Positions 1,338-8,374 of a stretch of DNA of 10,234 bases are shown here, piece by piece. The first letter of the stretch is position 1; the number at the start of each line of letters is the position of its first letter. The stretch lies in contig CADFHB010000020.1 of NCBI GenBank assembly GCA_902834055.1, positions 1 through 10,234 of the forward strand. The letters are read 5' to 3'. The stretch is from Lactobacillaceae bacterium (GTDB taxonomy: Bacteria > Bacillota > Bacilli > Lactobacillales > Lactobacillaceae). A program made the translations under genes and the position numbers. The notes beneath the pieces are model-generated. The model made no database searches, was not told where the DNA came from, and saw only the letters and a list, made by a program, of their open reading frames with translations.

Positions 1338-2232
1338 ATGAATAATACAAAGTCTTTTTCTAAAGGTCAGTTGTGGGGTGTTAAGCTAAACCTGATTTCA
1401 CTCTTGTTCAGCAGCATTAGCCCCGTCCTGAATAAGTTCTCGCTAACAAGCCTCAGCCCGGTAATCGGTGGAATATTCACCAGTATTTTTGCGGCCGTAT
1501 TTGTCTTAATAACAATTGTTTTCCGGCGCCAGGCTCTTAGCTGGCGTTCCTTCGCCAATCCCTGGCTCTGGCTTCTCGAGGGAACGAACGCCGTGGGAAT
1601 TATTCTCCAGTACGTGGCATTATCCCTACTGAGCCCAATTACCGTTACACTGATTGCACGGATGTACCTGGTCTACTTTTTCGTGCTCTCCTACGTTTTT
1701 CTTCGTGAAAAGATTGAAGGACTAGACTATCTTGCCATCGTTTTGTGCATCATCGATTCTTTCTTGATTTCCAGTGATCGCCTACAGCTCAGTGATAACG
1801 GTTGGGGAATTATCTGTGCCTTTATCTACCCGTTGATGTATGCCGCAAATAATATCACCGCTAAGCACCTGGTTACGGATGCTCACGCAAACAGCGTCCT
1901 CTTTTATAACCATTCAACCTCAGCGATCCTATTACTTGTCTTTGCACTGGCGAGTGGGACGTCGTTTAAAGGAATTTCATCCTCAGCGGTAGCCTTTAAC
2001 TTTGGTGGGGGCCTTCTTTAATGGTTTCCTCTCCCTCCTTCTTTTCTACACAAGTTTAAAATTTATTTCTGCAGGAAAGGCAAACATTGTGCGCGCCATC
2101 GGACCGGTTATTGTAATCATCTACTCCGCATTCTTCTTCCCGGTTCAAGTAACCCCCTCGTTAATTTTGGGAGCCATCCTAGTACTCGCTGCCAGTGTCA
2201 TCGTCACCTTTACCAAAACAATTCACCGGTAA
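1338..2232 (+). pseudogene. EamA/DMT-family transporter, split by a frameshift
   Basis: This resembles a drug/metabolite transporter with two EamA halves, inner-membrane proteins that move small metabolites. A strong AGGAGG site precedes ATG at 1338. The first frame encodes about ten residues of soluble N-terminus, then hydrophobic segments, with FLREK near residue 121 closing one pair. The frame ends at TAA 2019-2021 just after a run of five G (2007-2011). The remainder continues in the +1 frame from about 2002 to TAA 2230-2232 and encodes typical last-helix EamA sequence: YTSLKFISAGKAN, then RAIGPVIVIIYSAFFFP, then a final helix. Removing one G joins the two parts into a protein of about 297 residues, the normal size for this family with ten helices. 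As written, the protein loses about three C-terminal helices and is probably inactive. A sequencing error in the G run is the main alternative. The substrate is unknown. Confidence 0.8.
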
Positions 2233-2967: not shown

Positions 2968-3672
2968 TTAGTAAGTTGCTTCAATTTTAACGTTCTTTTG
3001 GGCCGTTAAGTCCGCGTCTGGGTACTTATTTTTAAGTGCTGCCAGTAACATCTTCTTTGCCAATTCACCATTGCGGTCGAGGATGGTGTGCATGTTGGTG
3101 CAGAAGGTGTTCTTGTAAACAGCTCCTTCCGTATCGTCATCATGGTTATTACCGGTTCCCTCAACCACGGTCCCGAGGGCCTTTTCGCCTTCACCAAGGA
3201 AGGTCACGAGGTCGTGGTTTTCATGGCCGTGCATCTTGGTCCCCCACTGGGACTCAATCACCAACTCACCCTGGATTTGCTCGCCATCAGCTGGTAGTTC
3301 GCTATGGTGGGATAGTAGCCCGGCCCCAGCAATCTTTTTGTTATGCTGGTCAACATAAGATTGTCCAAGCAACTGGTAGCCCTCACCAACCGCTAGCAGA
3401 GGCTTACCACCTTCAATATAGCGGTGGAGCTCATCATGTTTACTGTCGATATCCTCCCGGGCGATGGACTGCTCAAACTTCTGGCCGGCGCCCAGGACAA
3501 TCAGGTCATAGTCGGCAGCTGAAAACCCATCTTCCACACTGACAACCCTACTCAATACATCGGTGTCCAAAAGCTGGCCATAGTACTTTAATGCCATGAT
3601 ATTACCCAGGTCACCATAGGTATTCAGCAGGTTACCATACAGGTGCGCTAGCTGTAATTGGTACTTTGCCAT
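2968..3672 (-). CDS. gatD: GatD-like glutamine amidotransferase subunit, catalytic Cys missing
   Basis: GatD is the glutaminase half of lipid II isoglutaminyl synthase; it supplies ammonia to MurT for amidation of D-Glu in peptidoglycan precursors at the inner face of the membrane. This 234-residue protein has family length and layout: HLYGNLLNTYGDLGNIMAL near the start, LIVLGAGQKFEQ at 58-69, HGHENHD at 148-154, and an EGTGNN...YKN block at 171-188. The family nucleophile Cys (Cys94 in S. aureus) should lie in a C-G-G-Y-Q type motif. Here residues 94-100 read AVGEGYQ, so Gly96 takes its place. His195 remains at the position of the catalytic His, but its usual T-Y-x-H-G-P surroundings read TNMHTI. 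The GGGQD motif has become GAGQK. The ATG overlaps the murT stop as TAATG, so translation is coupled. Family membership is clear from sequence and synteny, but glutaminase activity is doubtful. Confidence 0.88.
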   Translation of the reverse strand: MAKYQLQLAHLYGNLLNTYGDLGNIMALKYYGQLLDTDVLSRVVSVEDGFSAADYDLIVLGAGQKFEQSIAREDIDSKHDELHRYIEGGKPLLAVGEGYQLLGQSYVDQHNKKIAGAGLLSHHSELPADGEQIQGELVIESQWGTKMHGHENHDLVTFLGEGEKALGTVVEGTGNNHDDDTEGAVYKNTFCTNMHTILDRNGELAKKMLLAALKNKYPDADLTAQKNVKIEATY

Positions 3673-5009
3673 TATTCCATCCCCCCATCGATCAGCTTCT
3701 GTTCTGCCAGTGCCTTCCGGAGCTGCCGCATCGCGGTATAGCAGGTTACCACGTACATGCGCTTCGTTGGAATCTCCTTGATCCGGTCAATCACTTTTTC
3801 CGGGTTCGGTTCAACGTTTACATCCTTAAATCCACCAAACTTAAAGCGGGTCGCGGCATCCTTGTAATTTGCCGCACCGACTAGGTAGTACGGGATGTCA
3901 TGGTCCTTGAGGATTTCAAAGTTGCAGTCCCAAATCCAAGAAGTGTCTTCCCCGTCTGCCGGTAAGGCGGTAAGCAAGAAGGCAAAGGAAAACGGGTCCT
4001 TATCAGTTTTGATCATATCCAAGACGGTATCGACCCCGATTTGGTTCTTGACCATGATAATGACCATTTCCTTGTCACCAATTTTGACCTTTTCCTGGCG
4101 GCCAAAGATTTCGGGACTTTGGGCAAACGCGGTCTTAATGGCGCTGCTTTCCACCCCCATGAAGCGGGCCAGGGAGTACGCCGCCAGGGCATTATAAATG
4201 TTGTAGGCGCCTCCCACGGGAATCTTAAACTCGCTATCATCAAACTTAACCACTGAGTCCGCCGAAGTCATCCGCTCAACGGCAGTTACTTCATAGTCTA
4301 ATTGCGGACGCTTGTGGCCACAATTAGGGCAGAAGTAAGCACCCAGGCCACCATAGGTAATGAAGCCGTAGTGGATGATATGGTGGCATTTCGGACAAAC
4401 CACCCCATCGGTATTGGATGGTGCTTCTAAATCGCCCATTGGCTGGTCGTTAAACCCGTACCAAACGCGGGGGTTGGGCAGGTCAACGGAGTTAAAGATG
4501 GGGTCATCAGCGTTAGCAATAATGGTTGCTTGAGGTGCCATCCGCACCCCTTCGAGCATCCGGTCCCAGGTTGCGTATAGTTCACTGTACCGGTCAAGCT
4601 GGTCCCGGAAGAGGTTGGTGAAAACAAAGGCCTTGGGTTTAAAGTACTTTACAATGCGGACAATGTTAGCCTCATCGACCTCAAGGACGGCTAGCCCCTT
4701 CTTCTTGGGCTTAGGCGCCGTGACGAAGATGGTGGCGATCCCCCGTTTCATGTTGGACCCGGTTGGGTTATAAAGGACATCCGGGTACTTTTGCTTAAGG
4801 GCGTGGACGGCCAATGCAGTTGCCGTGGTTTTCCCGTTGGTTCCCCCGACAATTACGAAGTCATAGCGATCTTTGTAGTGGTAAAGAATGTCTGGATCAA
4901 GCTTAAGCGCAACGAGACCGGGCAGTGAACTTCCCCGGTTAAAGATTCCGTGTAGGATGGATTGGGAAAGGTGACCTACTCCAGCAGCAACTGAACTTCT
5001 GAGTGACAT
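3672..5009 (-). CDS. murT: MurT-like lipid II isoglutaminyl synthase, ligase subunit
   Basis: MurT is a Mur-ligase-family enzyme that uses ATP to activate the D-Glu carboxylate of lipid II and attach ammonia, forming D-isoglutamine with GatD. This protein has 445 residues, the usual length. Visible motifs are the P-loop GGTNGKTT (55-62), VLEVDEAN (108-115), TNLFRDQLDRYSE (131-143), a four-Cys zinc ribbon (Cys205, Cys208, Cys227, Cys230), and the C-terminal DUF1727 region with ADGEDTSWIWD (351-361). That last motif should hold the Asp that completes the GatD triad in S. aureus. Family motifs of the form KNPxG and LND..ADG read KNQIG (321-325) and LTALPADG here, so the second half has diverged along with its partner. 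AAGGA lies upstream of the ATG. A possible promoter is TAAAAT at 5033-5038 with TTATGA at 5055-5060. The pair forms a two-gene operon. Confidence 0.92.
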   Translation of the reverse strand: MSLRSSVAAGVGHLSQSILHGIFNRGSSLPGLVALKLDPDILYHYKDRYDFVIVGGTNGKTTATALAVHALKQKYPDVLYNPTGSNMKRGIATIFVTAPKPKKKGLAVLEVDEANIVRIVKYFKPKAFVFTNLFRDQLDRYSELYATWDRMLEGVRMAPQATIIANADDPIFNSVDLPNPRVWYGFNDQPMGDLEAPSNTDGVVCPKCHHIIHYGFITYGGLGAYFCPNCGHKRPQLDYEVTAVERMTSADSVVKFDDSEFKIPVGGAYNIYNALAAYSLARFMGVESSAIKTAFAQSPEIFGRQEKVKIGDKEMVIIMVKNQIGVDTVLDMIKTDKDPFSFAFLLTALPADGEDTSWIWDCNFEILKDHDIPYYLVGAANYKDAATRFKFGGFKDVNVEPNPEKVIDRIKEIPTKRMYVVTCYTAMRQLRKALAEQKLIDGGME

Positions 5010-5103: not shown

Positions 5104-5143
5104 AACGCGCCCCACTCGTTTTCTCAGACGGGTGGGGCGCGTT
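5104..5143 (-). terminator. Rho-independent terminator after the DXS-like gene
   Basis: A 15-bp GC-rich stem (5104-5118 with 5129-5143, core CGCGCCCCAC/GTGGGGCGCG, one G-T pair) encloses a 10-base loop. On the minus strand it is followed by a T-rich run. It lies 17 bases past the stop of the DXS-like gene and separates that transcript from murT-gatD. Confidence 0.88.
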
Positions 5144-5160
5144 TGTTCGATTATCAAATT

Positions 5161-6936
5161 TTACAAGGAGTGAATAACCTTTTCGATGTCATCAACGATT
5201 TGCTTAGGTGTCAGGTGGTACCATTCGTAGAGAACCTCTAACGGCACGTTATCGGCAAATTCACGTGGTGCACCAAAATTAAGAACCTTCATCGGTGTTG
5301 GTCCGTAGTAGCGGTCAATGGTCTCGCCAAAGCCCCCACTTAAGTTTCCATCCTCCAAAGTAACGACAACATCATGATTTTCTGATAGGTGGTGTAGGAC
5401 CTGCGGATCAATTCCGGTAAGTGACTTTGGATTGATCAGCGTCGCGTCGACGTTGATCTTCTTCTTGAGTTCTTCACAAACCTTCTTACCTAACTCCCAG
5501 AAGTCACCAACAGCCATGATGGCAACCTCACTCCCGTGGTGGGCAATGTCATACTTGATGTTGCTGTAGTCATCCTGCGTTGCTTCACCGTGAATCAGTG
5601 GCTTTTCTGGTTCCCGGATAACAACCGGCTGGTCAGTCTGCTTAATGGCCCACTTCAGCATTGAAAGCAACTCTTCGACGTTTGTCGGTGCCAGGTACTC
5701 AATGTTCGGCAGGTCACTAATCATCGAAATATCAAACGATCCCTGGTGGGTTGCGGATTCGGTGGCAATTGTTCCCCCACGAACAATCATCACTACTGGA
5801 GCATCATTCAGGGCCATGTCATGAATTAACTGGTCGTACGCCCGCTGCAGGAAGGTTGCATTCTGAAATACGACTGGCCGTGCACCGGCGATTGCCATCG
5901 CAACCGCCGAGCTGATGCAGTCCTGTTCAGCAATTCCCACGTCATAGTACCGGTCCGGGTGCTTAGCCTGGAATTTCTTCAAGTTAAAGGCACCGGGAAT
6001 GGCGGCGTTCATGGCCACGACCGGTTCACCAGCATCAATTTGCCGATCTAACTCGGCCAAAATGGCATCGCTATAGGATTCACCAGTAACGGGATGCTTA
6101 TCTTTACCCGTCTTGAGGTCGAATGGCATCCGCCAGTGGTAATTCATCTTTTCCTTGATTGCTGGTTCATAGCCCTTGCCCTTCAGCGTATTGACGTGAA
6201 GCACGATCGGGTGGTCAACATCTTTGATTTCCTTGAAAGCATCAATCATGGCCCGCAAATTATTACCATCCTTGACGTAACGGTAGTCCAGGCCCATGAA
6301 CTTAAAGATGTTATTCGGTGATGCCCCGTCGGTCTCCCGGAGCTCCTTCAAACCTTGGTATAACCCACCTTGGTTTTCGTCAATCGACATCTGATTATCA
6401 TTAACAACGATAATCAGGTTAGACTTAAGCTTAGCCGCGTTATTCAAGCCCTCAAAGGCGAGGCCCCCACTTAAGGAGCCATCCCCGATGACGGCAACAA
6501 CGTTATCTTTGGAATCCGGGTTCAAGAGGTCCCGTGCTTGGGCCATCCCCACGGCCAACGAGATGGAAGTGGAGGTGTGGCCAATCTCAAAGAAATCGTG
6601 GTTACTCTCGGCTGGTGATGTAAATCCGGAGATGTCCTTGTAGTGGTCAGGATTTAAGAAGGCCAGCTTCCTGCCCGTCAACATTTTATGGGCATAGCAT
6701 TGGTGGGAAACATCCCAGATGATTTTATCATGTGGAGAATTAAAAACATAGTGGTAAGCAAGCGTTAATTCCATTACCCCAAGGTTTGGACCAACGTGCC
6801 CACCGATTGCTGCATCACGCTCCAGAACCAGTTGGCGCATTTCACTCGCCAACCGCTTCAGTTCATCAAGCGTCATCCCTTTGATATCTTCCGGTTCATC
6901 TACTTCATTCAGTAAATAGTCTGGATGCCGATTCAT
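5161..6936 (-). CDS. dxs: 1-deoxy-D-xylulose-5-phosphate synthase-like TPP enzyme
   Basis: DXS joins pyruvate and glyceraldehyde 3-phosphate with thiamine diphosphate to give DXP, the precursor of MEP-pathway isoprenoids, thiamine and pyridoxal. The 591 residues show its domain order. In the N-terminal domain GGH (45-47) is followed by IIWDVSHQCYAHKMLTGR (72-89), GHTSTSIS (119-126) and the TPP motif GDGS (151-154) through VNDN (178-181). The pyrimidine domain has YDVGIAEQD (331-339) with the TPP-activating Glu337, TFLQRAYDQ (361-369) and THQGSFD (396-402). The C-terminal transketolase domain has LEDGNLSGGFGE (527-538). Several positions differ from canonical DXS: AEQH is AEQD, the DRAG loop before THQG is VRGG (385-388), and RYPRG is REPEK (441-445). 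No MEP gene is nearby, and lactobacilli usually make isoprenoids through mevalonate, so the true substrate may differ. AAAGGAG precedes the ATG. It appears monocistronic. Confidence 0.88.
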   Translation of the reverse strand: MNRHPDYLLNEVDEPEDIKGMTLDELKRLASEMRQLVLERDAAIGGHVGPNLGVMELTLAYHYVFNSPHDKIIWDVSHQCYAHKMLTGRKLAFLNPDHYKDISGFTSPAESNHDFFEIGHTSTSISLAVGMAQARDLLNPDSKDNVVAVIGDGSLSGGLAFEGLNNAAKLKSNLIIVVNDNQMSIDENQGGLYQGLKELRETDGASPNNIFKFMGLDYRYVKDGNNLRAMIDAFKEIKDVDHPIVLHVNTLKGKGYEPAIKEKMNYHWRMPFDLKTGKDKHPVTGESYSDAILAELDRQIDAGEPVVAMNAAIPGAFNLKKFQAKHPDRYYDVGIAEQDCISSAVAMAIAGARPVVFQNATFLQRAYDQLIHDMALNDAPVVMIVRGGTIATESATHQGSFDISMISDLPNIEYLAPTNVEELLSMLKWAIKQTDQPVVIREPEKPLIHGEATQDDYSNIKYDIAHHGSEVAIMAVGDFWELGKKVCEELKKKINVDATLINPKSLTGIDPQVLHHLSENHDVVVTLEDGNLSGGFGETIDRYYGPTPMKVLNFGAPREFADNVPLEVLYEWYHLTPKQIVDDIEKVIHSL

Positions 6937-7111: not shown

Positions 7112-8374
7112 TTGACTATGGGGGAAATTGAAAACGCTGCGGTTGAAAAGCTTTCGCCGCTGAAGAAATTGACCCGGGAACAAGAACAACTGGTGGAAGA
7201 CATTTTAAACTTTACCAGTGACCATTTGAAAAAAGGCTTTCCGGCCACCTACACCATTTACGGTGATGCGGGGACTGGAAAGAGCGTTGTCTTATCACAA
7301 CTGTTTGACCGCATCCAGACGGCCGCGCGCCGGGATAAGTCGTCGCCTTTTTATAAGACCAGTAACTACTTCCTGGTCAACCACCCAGAAATATTGAAGG
7401 TGTACCGGGAGATTGCTGGCGAACGTCCCGAACTTTACAAGAAGGACTTTGCCCGGCCCACCTCTCTGATCAACCAGCTAGATAAGCGGGGAAAGACGAT
7501 TGACGTTGCGGTGGTTGACGAGGCCCACCTCCTGTTATCAAAGGCTGACCACTACAATAACTTTTATCATGACAACCAGCTGGTTGAACTCATCAAGCGG
7601 GCGAAGGTGGTCATCATCGTCTTCGACCAGTACCAGGTTTTACGGATGAAAAGTCTGTGGACACCGGAACGACTGCAAAAGATCACCCACCAGTATCCAT
7701 TCAAGGAATACCACCTTCACCACATGTTCCGGATGACCGCCAGTGACGATCTTGTCGCCTGGTTTAACCACTTTACCAGCAATGGTGAGCTAGTGCCCAT
7801 TCCCCGTGACGCCCGTGATCACTACGATTTTCGGGTTTACGATGATGCGGAAGAGATGCGGCAGGCGATTGTCCACCGCAATAGTGAAGTCGGTCTCTCC
7901 CGAATTCTCTCCACTTCGGGGTACCCTTCAACGCTGGATGGGGGAAAACACTATATCCGCGAGGGACGGTTCAAAATGCCATGGGACCAGTACAACTACA
8001 CCGTTACGCCCTGGGCGGAGATCCCCCAGACGATTGACGAGGTTGGGTCTATCTACACCTGCCAGGGTTTTGATCTTAACTATACGGGAATCATCATTGG
8101 GCCGCCAATCAGCCAGATTCCCGCCAGCAAGCGACTCCAGGTCAACCTCGATAAGTACACCGACAGCGAAGCGTTCAAGAAGCGAGCTGATTTAACCGAT
8201 CCACAGGAAATCACGGATTTGGAAAAACGGATGATTATGAACTCACTGAACGTCCTCTTCAAGCGTGGCGTCTACGGAACATACATCTATGCCCATGACC
8301 CCCTGCTCCGTCACACCCTCACTGACCTGTTCAAAGAAGCGGGCCTGACCATTCCCCGGGAGGAAGATAAATGA
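7112..8374 (+). CDS. DUF2075 / Schlafen-group-3-type helicase ATPase
   Basis: This 420-residue cytoplasmic P-loop protein belongs to the superfamily 1-helicase-like group Pfam calls DUF2075. Motifs in order are Walker A GDAGTGKS (51-58), Walker B VVDEAH (134-139), FDQYQ (171-175) as a helicase motif III position, HHMFRM (203-208), VGSIYTCQGFDLNYTGIIIG (311-330) as motif V, and RGVYGTYIYA (385-394) as motif VI. ATP-dependent nucleic-acid remodelling is inferred from these motifs; the substrate is unknown. It has no nuclease or Schlafen core domain, so it is the compact single-domain form. AAGGGA at 7100-7105 favours the TTG start at 7112 (six-base gap). ATG at 7118 is the alternative and would remove two residues. 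The stop overlaps the next start as ATGA, so the two products are made together. Confidence 0.85.
   Translation: MTMGEIENAAVEKLSPLKKLTREQEQLVEDILNFTSDHLKKGFPATYTIYGDAGTGKSVVLSQLFDRIQTAARRDKSSPFYKTSNYFLVNHPEILKVYREIAGERPELYKKDFARPTSLINQLDKRGKTIDVAVVDEAHLLLSKADHYNNFYHDNQLVELIKRAKVVIIVFDQYQVLRMKSLWTPERLQKITHQYPFKEYHLHHMFRMTASDDLVAWFNHFTSNGELVPIPRDARDHYDFRVYDDAEEMRQAIVHRNSEVGLSRILSTSGYPSTLDGGKHYIREGRFKMPWDQYNYTVTPWAEIPQTIDEVGSIYTCQGFDLNYTGIIIGPPISQIPASKRLQVNLDKYTDSEAFKKRADLTDPQEITDLEKRMIMNSLNVLFKRGVYGTYIYAHDPLLRHTLTDLFKEAGLTIPREEDK

Follow-up and report, generated by a model that had tools for sequence, protein, structure and literature searches.

The MurT–GatD complexes of Staphylococcus aureus, Streptococcus pneumoniae and S. 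pyogenes are the closest described systems to the locus reported here. In S. aureus GatD, the literature assigns roles to C94, H189, R128, G60 and G95, of which C94, H189 and R128 are each required for glutaminase activity (PMC5871853); residue roles have also been described for the S. pneumoniae complex (PMC6085368). The prevailing view is that lipid II amidation draws its nitrogen from glutamine in vivo, partly from the report that the S. aureus complex does not use NH3 at pH 7.5 (PMC3266927). According to the same study, a C94G substitution in S. aureus GatD abolishes glutamine-dependent amidation of lipid II, while the NH3-dependent reaction is kept at pH 8.5; this reaction still needs GatD, MurT alone being inactive.

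In human CPS1, Ser replaces the catalytic Cys and external ammonia is taken, and in the frog enzyme the residue after the Cys is reported to matter (PMC4655335). Archaeal MurT-like proteins are MurT homologues that manage without a glutaminase, in genomes described as having no GatD at all (PMC11915815). Other work has dealt with GatD overexpression and acid tolerance in Limosilactobacillus reuteri (PMC11471561) and with gatD of S. albulus (PMC12016549). Judged by titles, abstract openings and passages, none of the papers listed by our searches of the open-access literature, some of which were capped in length, deals with a GatD that naturally lacks the Cys. To our knowledge, no natural, selected Cys-less MurT–GatD pair has been known before.

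The stretch of DNA analysed here (the window) is 10,234 nucleotides long. Judged by identity and residue pattern, it carries a second, diverged murT–gatD operon of a Limosilactobacillus near L. panis, the genes of which we call murT2 and gatD2. A Cys-less pair of this kind, maintained by selection, may amidate peptidoglycan independently of glutamine or carry out a changed modification of the stem peptide.

Residues lost from GatD2 and changed in MurT2

2968–3672, minus strand: gatD2, a GatD-fold subunit of 234 aa, predicted to be glutaminase-dead (PF07685, phmmer, AlphaFold/Foldseek)
3382–3387, minus strand: codons 96–97 of gatD2, G-E replacing the nucleophile Cys and an oxyanion Gly (codon 96, GGT, 3385–3387; codon 97, GAG, 3382–3384)
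3478–3492, minus strand: GatD2 residues 61–65, GAGQK, altered oxyanion strand (canonical GGGQD; A62 and K65 in 8/8 GatD2, G and D in 35/35 canonical)
3277–3279, minus strand: GatD2 residue 132, Q in the window, where canonical GatDs have the glutamine-capturing Arg (R128 in S. aureus, R142 in S. pneumoniae)
3082–3090, minus strand: GatD2 residues 195–197, H-T-I, with the His retained and the Gly-Pro of HGP gone
3672–5009, minus strand: murT2, a MurT-type Mur ligase of 445 aa, sharing one base with the start of gatD2 (PF08353, PF08245)
4743–4748, minus strand: MurT2 residues 88–89, K-R, beside the acceptor loop (canonical x-Q)
4584–4586, minus strand: MurT2 Ser142 in the interface/channel loop 135–143 (S in 7/7; Gly in 58/58 canonical)
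4041–4043, minus strand: MurT2 Gln323, converting the KNP loop to KNQ (Q in 7/7; Pro in 58/58 canonical)
3945–3971, minus strand: MurT2 residues 347–355, TALPADGED (canonical N-A-x-YADG-I-D), with Asp355 kept
3924–3926, minus strand: MurT2 Cys362, adjoining gate residue Asp361

The gatD2 product scored 96.3 bits against PF07685 (GATase_3; cut-off 27), and phmmer matched it to the solved GatDs 9sq9 (E = 8e-50) and 6fqb (E = 1e-48). Its AlphaFold model (pLDDT 85) gave a Foldseek TM-score of 0.88 to GatD in both structures. MurT2 was matched by phmmer to MurT of 6fqb at E = 5e-120, and its model (pLDDT 79) had query-normalised TM-scores of 0.77–0.83 to streptococcal MurT. Both proteins fell below the cut-offs of the NCBIfam models, with 221.5 bits for GatD2 (NF045636, cut-off 400) and 488.6 bits for MurT2 (NF045635, cut-off 800), as did the canonical GatD and MurT of L. 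oris (334.4 and 586.7 bits, respectively).

Codons 94–100 of gatD2 (GCG GTT GGT GAG GGC TAC CAG) encode AVGEGYQ, and Gly96 aligns with the nucleophile of S. aureus GatD (Cys94) and of streptococcal GatD in the solved structures. G96 and E97, like the altered oxyanion-strand residues, are present in all eight GatD2 sequences aligned, where all 35 canonical sequences have C and G. (The latter are distinct canonical GatDs from part of the 50 Limosilactobacillus genomes described below and from some other genera.) Site 132 is Pro in seven GatD2 sequences and Gln in one, compared to Arg in 35/35 canonical sequences, and Tyr105 is also lost; neither of these two sites was named in the initial annotation. 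His195 and the triad residue Asp21 are retained in 8/8, as are the NTY plug and, in 7/8, the interface residue Gly23. His150 in the pocket is fixed in 8/8, along with K65 and E97. Without the nucleophile, the oxyanion-hole residues and the glutamine-capturing Arg, GatD2 is not expected to act as a normal glutaminase, yet its predicted fold is still that of GatD. The names given to Cys-less proteins in databases do not reveal the loss: those seen were “type 1 glutamine amidotransferase” and, for the protein of Acetilactobacillus jinshanensis, a UniRef name beginning “Lipid II isoglutamin...”.

The murT2 frame is open, and the literature-defined catalytic residues that we checked are all intact. 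Kept in 7/7 MurT2 sequences are G59-K60 of the P-loop, E110, D112, E113, N132, R135, D136, N270, N273, R304, the gate residue D355 and W360, together with the zinc-ribbon cysteines 208, 227 and 230; the fourth, C205, is invariant in 25/25 alignment rows. The P-loop Lys, the acidic Mg residues, the adenine Asn, the hinge Arg and the zinc Cys are all among these retained residues. At otherwise invariant sites close to the GatD gate and around the presumed acceptor site, MurT2 carries many fixed changes. R89 occurs in 7/7 MurT2 sequences, compared to Q in 58/58 canonical MurTs, while the adjacent K88 is also seen in 6/58 of the latter. The stretch 347–355 has N347T, Y350P (Tyr in 57/58 canonical sequences) and I354E, the last of these just before gate Asp355; for the corresponding S. 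aureus stretch, matching NAxYADGID, a contact with the stem-peptide L-Lys has been proposed (PMC6113224). Cys362, next to a residue described as part of the gate (D361; PMC6085368), is found in 7/7 MurT2 sequences and in Acetilactobacillus, where the 58 canonical sequences have Gly (49) or Ala (9).

The pair thus resembles the S. aureus, S. pneumoniae and S. pyogenes systems in gene order, in both folds, in the MurT catalytic residues checked, and in the zinc ribbon, interface Trp360, GatD NTY plug and GatD His. In contrast to these systems, GatD2 lacks the nucleophilic Cys, the oxyanion glycines, the glutamine-capturing Arg and the HGP loop, and MurT2 is altered at the gate, in the KNP loop and in the presumed acceptor region. 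The initial annotation had read Gly in place of the nucleophilic Cys at position 96, with which both the codons and the alignment to solved GatDs agree; the GAGQK and H195-T-I sequences are as it described them, and the five nearest relatives have GAGQK and H-T[IV]. It had also called MurT apparently intact, which holds for the catalytic core but not for the surroundings of the gate and presumed acceptor site, where many fixed changes lie.

A second pair in Limosilactobacillus and a Cys-less pair in Acetilactobacillus

The window GatD is 87% identical to that of L. panis DSM 6035. Among 13 relatives found by scanning GTDB contigs, the nearest five (72–87% identity) have AVGEG[YF]Q, GAGQK and H-T[IV], whereas the other eight (47–55%) have C-G-G, GGGQD and HGP. 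GatD2 (72–87% identity) was present in 6/50 Limosilactobacillus genomes, each of which also had a second match at 47–52%; the remaining 44 had a single match (47–56%). The initial annotation had proposed a search for a second pair with an intact Cys, and the second GatD bears the Cys in 6/6 carriers, from which we infer that a canonical pair is also present in the window’s own genome. In a MurT_C family search of five genomes, each of the four carriers had two matches above the cut-off, and L. pontis had a single one. Position 96, which the annotation had suggested scoring in relatives, is Gly (12) or Ser (2) in all 14 GatD2-type proteins, the window’s included, among the matches listed. Together with two from Acetilactobacillus, these make up the 16 proteins without Cys among 188 GatDs, the union of the best 120 matches from each of two protein searches, with the window’s own counted in.

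MurT2 has diverged less between species than canonical MurT, with dN of 0.059 vs. 0.165 for L. panis–L. oris, 0.046 vs. 0.185 for L. panis–L. intestinipullorum and 0.040 vs. 0.145 for L. intestinipullorum–L. oris, or a quarter to a third of the canonical value for the same species pairs. For GatD2 and canonical GatD the values are 0.174 vs. 0.144, 0.127 vs. 0.172 and 0.110 vs. 0.121, respectively, so the constraint is about equal. The dN/dS of MurT2 was 0.016–0.046 for between-species pairs with measurable dS, L. panis–G032 excepted; dS was high or saturated (≈2 or more) throughout, except for MurT2 of L. intestinipullorum–L. oris (1.13), a pair that interspecies transfer may have shortened. 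The nearly identical L. panis–G032 pair had high ratios (0.44 for MurT2, 0.85 for GatD2) based on very few changes. By these estimates, MurT2 is under strong purifying selection. That gatD is not simply decayed, as the annotation had argued, is borne out by the open frames across species and by dN values close to the canonical ones.

Rows were dropped if the alignment was shorter than 400 aa for MurT or 220 aa for GatD (380 and 190 for the combined tree), and identical sequences were counted once. The residue counts and dN comparisons thus cover sequences other than the MurT2, canonical MurT and canonical GatD of L. equigenerosi. In the draft genome of that species (L037, L042), both copies of murT and the canonical gatD are frameshifted.

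All 41 genomes in a sample of Lactobacillaceae had a GatD match (42 places). The motif could be read at 30 of these and had Cys at 29; the exception, G083, has AVGEGYQ and a GatD 100% identical to a protein of A. jinshanensis. This genome has only one GatD match, even at a looser threshold, and one MurT_C match. The motif also occurs in a second Acetilactobacillus GatD (78%), a MAG-derived protein of 212 aa whose end is divergent. The exact DNA motif, a pattern that misses other replacements, occurred in 4/397 genomes of the family: three Limosilactobacillus and G083. The Acetilactobacillus MurT retains the P-loop, EVDEA, the RDQ loop, the hinge and the zinc motifs. Changes common to the two Cys-less groups are C96G, G97E and Y105S in GatD (with AVGEGYQ in A. 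jinshanensis as in the window) and Q89R, G142S, L319M, L428R and Cys362 in MurT. A. jinshanensis differs from the window pair in having GDGQY, HSFL and L354, and in being the sole pair in the genome searched.

In a GatD tree calculated without the motif columns, from which 11 near-identical canonical rows had been thinned out, Acetilactobacillus grouped with the Cys-bearing P0245 and P0246 (100/99), on a different branch from GatD2, which was placed, with moderate support values (84/81, 91/96), among the Limosilactobacillus sequences. A single Cys-less clade had an AU p-value of 0.020 for GatD, for a group that was named after the combined tree had been seen. The MurT tree also separated the two groups, although there a single clade was not rejected (AU p = 0.351). 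Together, these results favour a separate loss of the Cys in Acetilactobacillus, short of proof. A single origin is disfavoured, although a combined MurT+GatD tree joined the groups (SH-aLRT 99); long branches were flagged in that tree, which included the motif columns.

Convergence on identical residues above background was rejected, with 7/27 changed sites in Acetilactobacillus compared to 26/96 summed over 58 canonical controls. The same conserved GatD sites were nevertheless hit in excess, 14 of 21 changes falling on 20 of 92 sites (p = 2e-7; controls 25/151). In MurT, 20 of 37 changes fell on 40 of 176 sites (p = 2e-6), a weaker overlap, since controls gave 104/262. Acetilactobacillus is the fastest-changing row, with 58 conserved sites changed; the next has 26.

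Possible functions of the pair

Our preferred reading, to which we give an even chance, is that GatD2 is a dead structural and gating subunit and that MurT2 uses free ammonia, perhaps with an altered acceptor. GatD2 would dock on MurT2, serving structure and gating; MurT2 and ATP would activate a stem-peptide carboxylate, which free ammonia or ammonium would then attack without any need for glutamine. In the former glutaminase pocket, the conserved Glu97 could help to draw in ammonium, as could Glu354 at the acidic gate of MurT, which is found in Limosilactobacillus only; both suggestions are guesses. The acceptor may be altered because residues around its presumed site have changed. Of the possibilities raised in the initial annotation, namely free ammonia, a structural or regulatory GatD and a new substrate, the S. 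aureus data favour free ammonia and a structural GatD together (PMC3266927). GatD2 has the same Cys-to-Gly change as the C94G mutant of that study; unlike the laboratory mutant, it is natural and fixed by selection, with many more changes in both subunits. Human CPS1 is similar in that a class I glutaminase domain is kept in a dead state, with the Cys and the next residue changed (PMC4655335); it is a different synthase in another pathway and domain of life, and ammonia use is established for CPS1 and predicted for MurT2–GatD2. Compared to the archaeal MurT-like proteins, which occur without GatD (PMC11915815), a dead GatD is kept here and has changed together with MurT.

The A. jinshanensis genome, in which the only gatD match beside the one murT is Cys-less, also speaks for ammonia use. 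Against it, GatD His195 and MurT Asp355, both canonical glutaminase residues, are retained, E354 is replaced by Leu in Acetilactobacillus, and Q89R and TALPADGED hint at a change beyond the nitrogen source. The high dN/dS of the L. panis–G032 pair, based on few changes, also counts against it. Moreover, A. jinshanensis grows optimally at pH 4.0 (PMC10284405), whereas S. aureus MurT–GatD was reported to use NH3 only at pH 8.5. There was no association with an ammonium transporter, matched in 3/6 carriers (one partially) and 25/44 non-carriers, or with glutamine synthetase, matched in 8/8 genomes tested (twice in A. jinshanensis).

Other Mur ligases join amino acids. It is possible, if rather doubtful, that the reaction itself has changed, with MurT2 acting on another acceptor carboxylate (for example, in a lipid-linked stem peptide with different branching) or joining some other amine, for instance an amino acid, in place of ammonia, and with GatD2 as a remodelled substrate-binding subunit. 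The fixed MurT2 changes at invariant sites point in this direction, notably R89 by the acceptor loop and the conversion of NAxYADGID, whose S. aureus counterpart is the proposed L-Lys contact (PMC6113224), to TALPADGED; so do K65, E97 and H150 in the GatD2 pocket, which would hardly be fixed in 8/8 by drift alone, and the canonical pair, which by homology already covers D-Glu amidation in the carriers. However, none of the catalytic and ATP residues checked has changed, and no candidate substrate gene accompanies the pair, whose neighbours vary by locus. A wholly new reaction would also leave D-Glu unamidated in A. jinshanensis, which has only this pair. That same genome, lacking a canonical pair to regulate, argues against a regulatory or decoy pseudoenzyme that would adjust amidation non-catalytically, through binding to lipid II or to the canonical subunits. 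We consider such a role unlikely: the canonical pair is there alongside in 6/6 carriers and the glutaminase residues of GatD2 are gone, but the kept catalytic residues and low dN of MurT2 fit an active ligase.

A nucleophile relocated to the interface is a far slimmer prospect. MurT Cys362, gained in both Cys-less groups (7/7 MurT2 and Acetilactobacillus; Gly or Ala in 58/58 canonical sequences) and directly following gate residue D361 (PMC6085368), might hydrolyse glutamine with GatD His195, which is retained, as is Asp355. With the glutamine-capturing Arg and both oxyanion positions lost, however, a substitute Cys is unlikely to work. Hardly credible at all is a dying duplicate or a sequencing error. 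The frameshifts in the draft murT2 of L. equigenerosi would be in line with it, but the canonical pair of that genome is frameshifted as well, so the draft assembly is the likely cause; the same motif stands in open frames of several species, and the dN/dS of MurT2 is low between species. Cross-species conservation and selection rule out sequencing error, decay and chance.

An extension of the ammonia reading, which we put forward tentatively and rate below an even chance, is that MurT–GatD has been rebuilt at least twice, as a second pair in Limosilactobacillus and as the sole pair in Acetilactobacillus, into a glutamine-independent ligase in which the former glutaminase pocket handles ammonium or an amine, with coordinated changes in MurT. 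If this is true, these lactobacilli would have a different route to, or kind of, stem-peptide modification. The existence of the Cys-less pair itself opens to direct test the question of what such a dead subunit is needed for.

Gene surroundings and possible mobility

5105–5142 (approximate), minus strand: GC-rich hairpin and, after it, a run rich in T, lying between the stop of a dxs-like gene and murT2 (seen by eye; the scanner did not report it)

The gatD2 and murT2 genes overlap by one base, at 3672, and adjoin each other in all seven other carrier loci compared (in L. equigenerosi, murT2 is in pieces). The hairpin is likely the terminator of the upstream gene, and its position between the dxs-like gene and murT2 suggests that murT2–gatD2 is a two-gene operon. 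Upstream of murT2 in the window lies a dxs-like TPP enzyme (5161–6936, minus strand), as in L. panis and G032; of the other carrier loci, the four whose upstream DNA extends far enough lack it at this place.

The pair was found in at least four distinct gene surroundings, and no gene, including any candidate substrate gene, was consistently linked to it across the loci compared. Integrase-core (rve) genes of one cluster occur in three carrier loci (L076:6566–7528, L079:5906–6892 and L077:2871–3839), adjoining gatD2 in G032 (L076) and L. intestinipullorum (L079); the rve score is slightly below the Pfam cut-off in L079 and L077. With its varied surroundings and rve neighbours, murT2–gatD2 behaves like a self-contained cassette. 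Between L. panis and G032 (L078 and L076), the murT2 region is 98–99% identical, compared to 91% for the canonical murT region, which suggests that the murT2 region was recently exchanged between them. The canonical pair of L. panis lies beside thymidine kinase and peptide-chain release factor genes, and by eye its neighbours are similar in L. oris and L. equigenerosi.

In the window (7112–8374; panis group) and in A. jinshanensis (L111:9087–10307) alike, an SLFN-g3 helicase gene is located near the Cys-less pair, with 58% identity between the two helicases; it was seen in no other locus examined, most of which had flanks of only 1.5 kb. An EamA-type transporter gene (1338–2232, plus strand) is split into two frames near a G-run (1338–2021 and 2002–2232, both EamA) by a frameshift or sequencing error.
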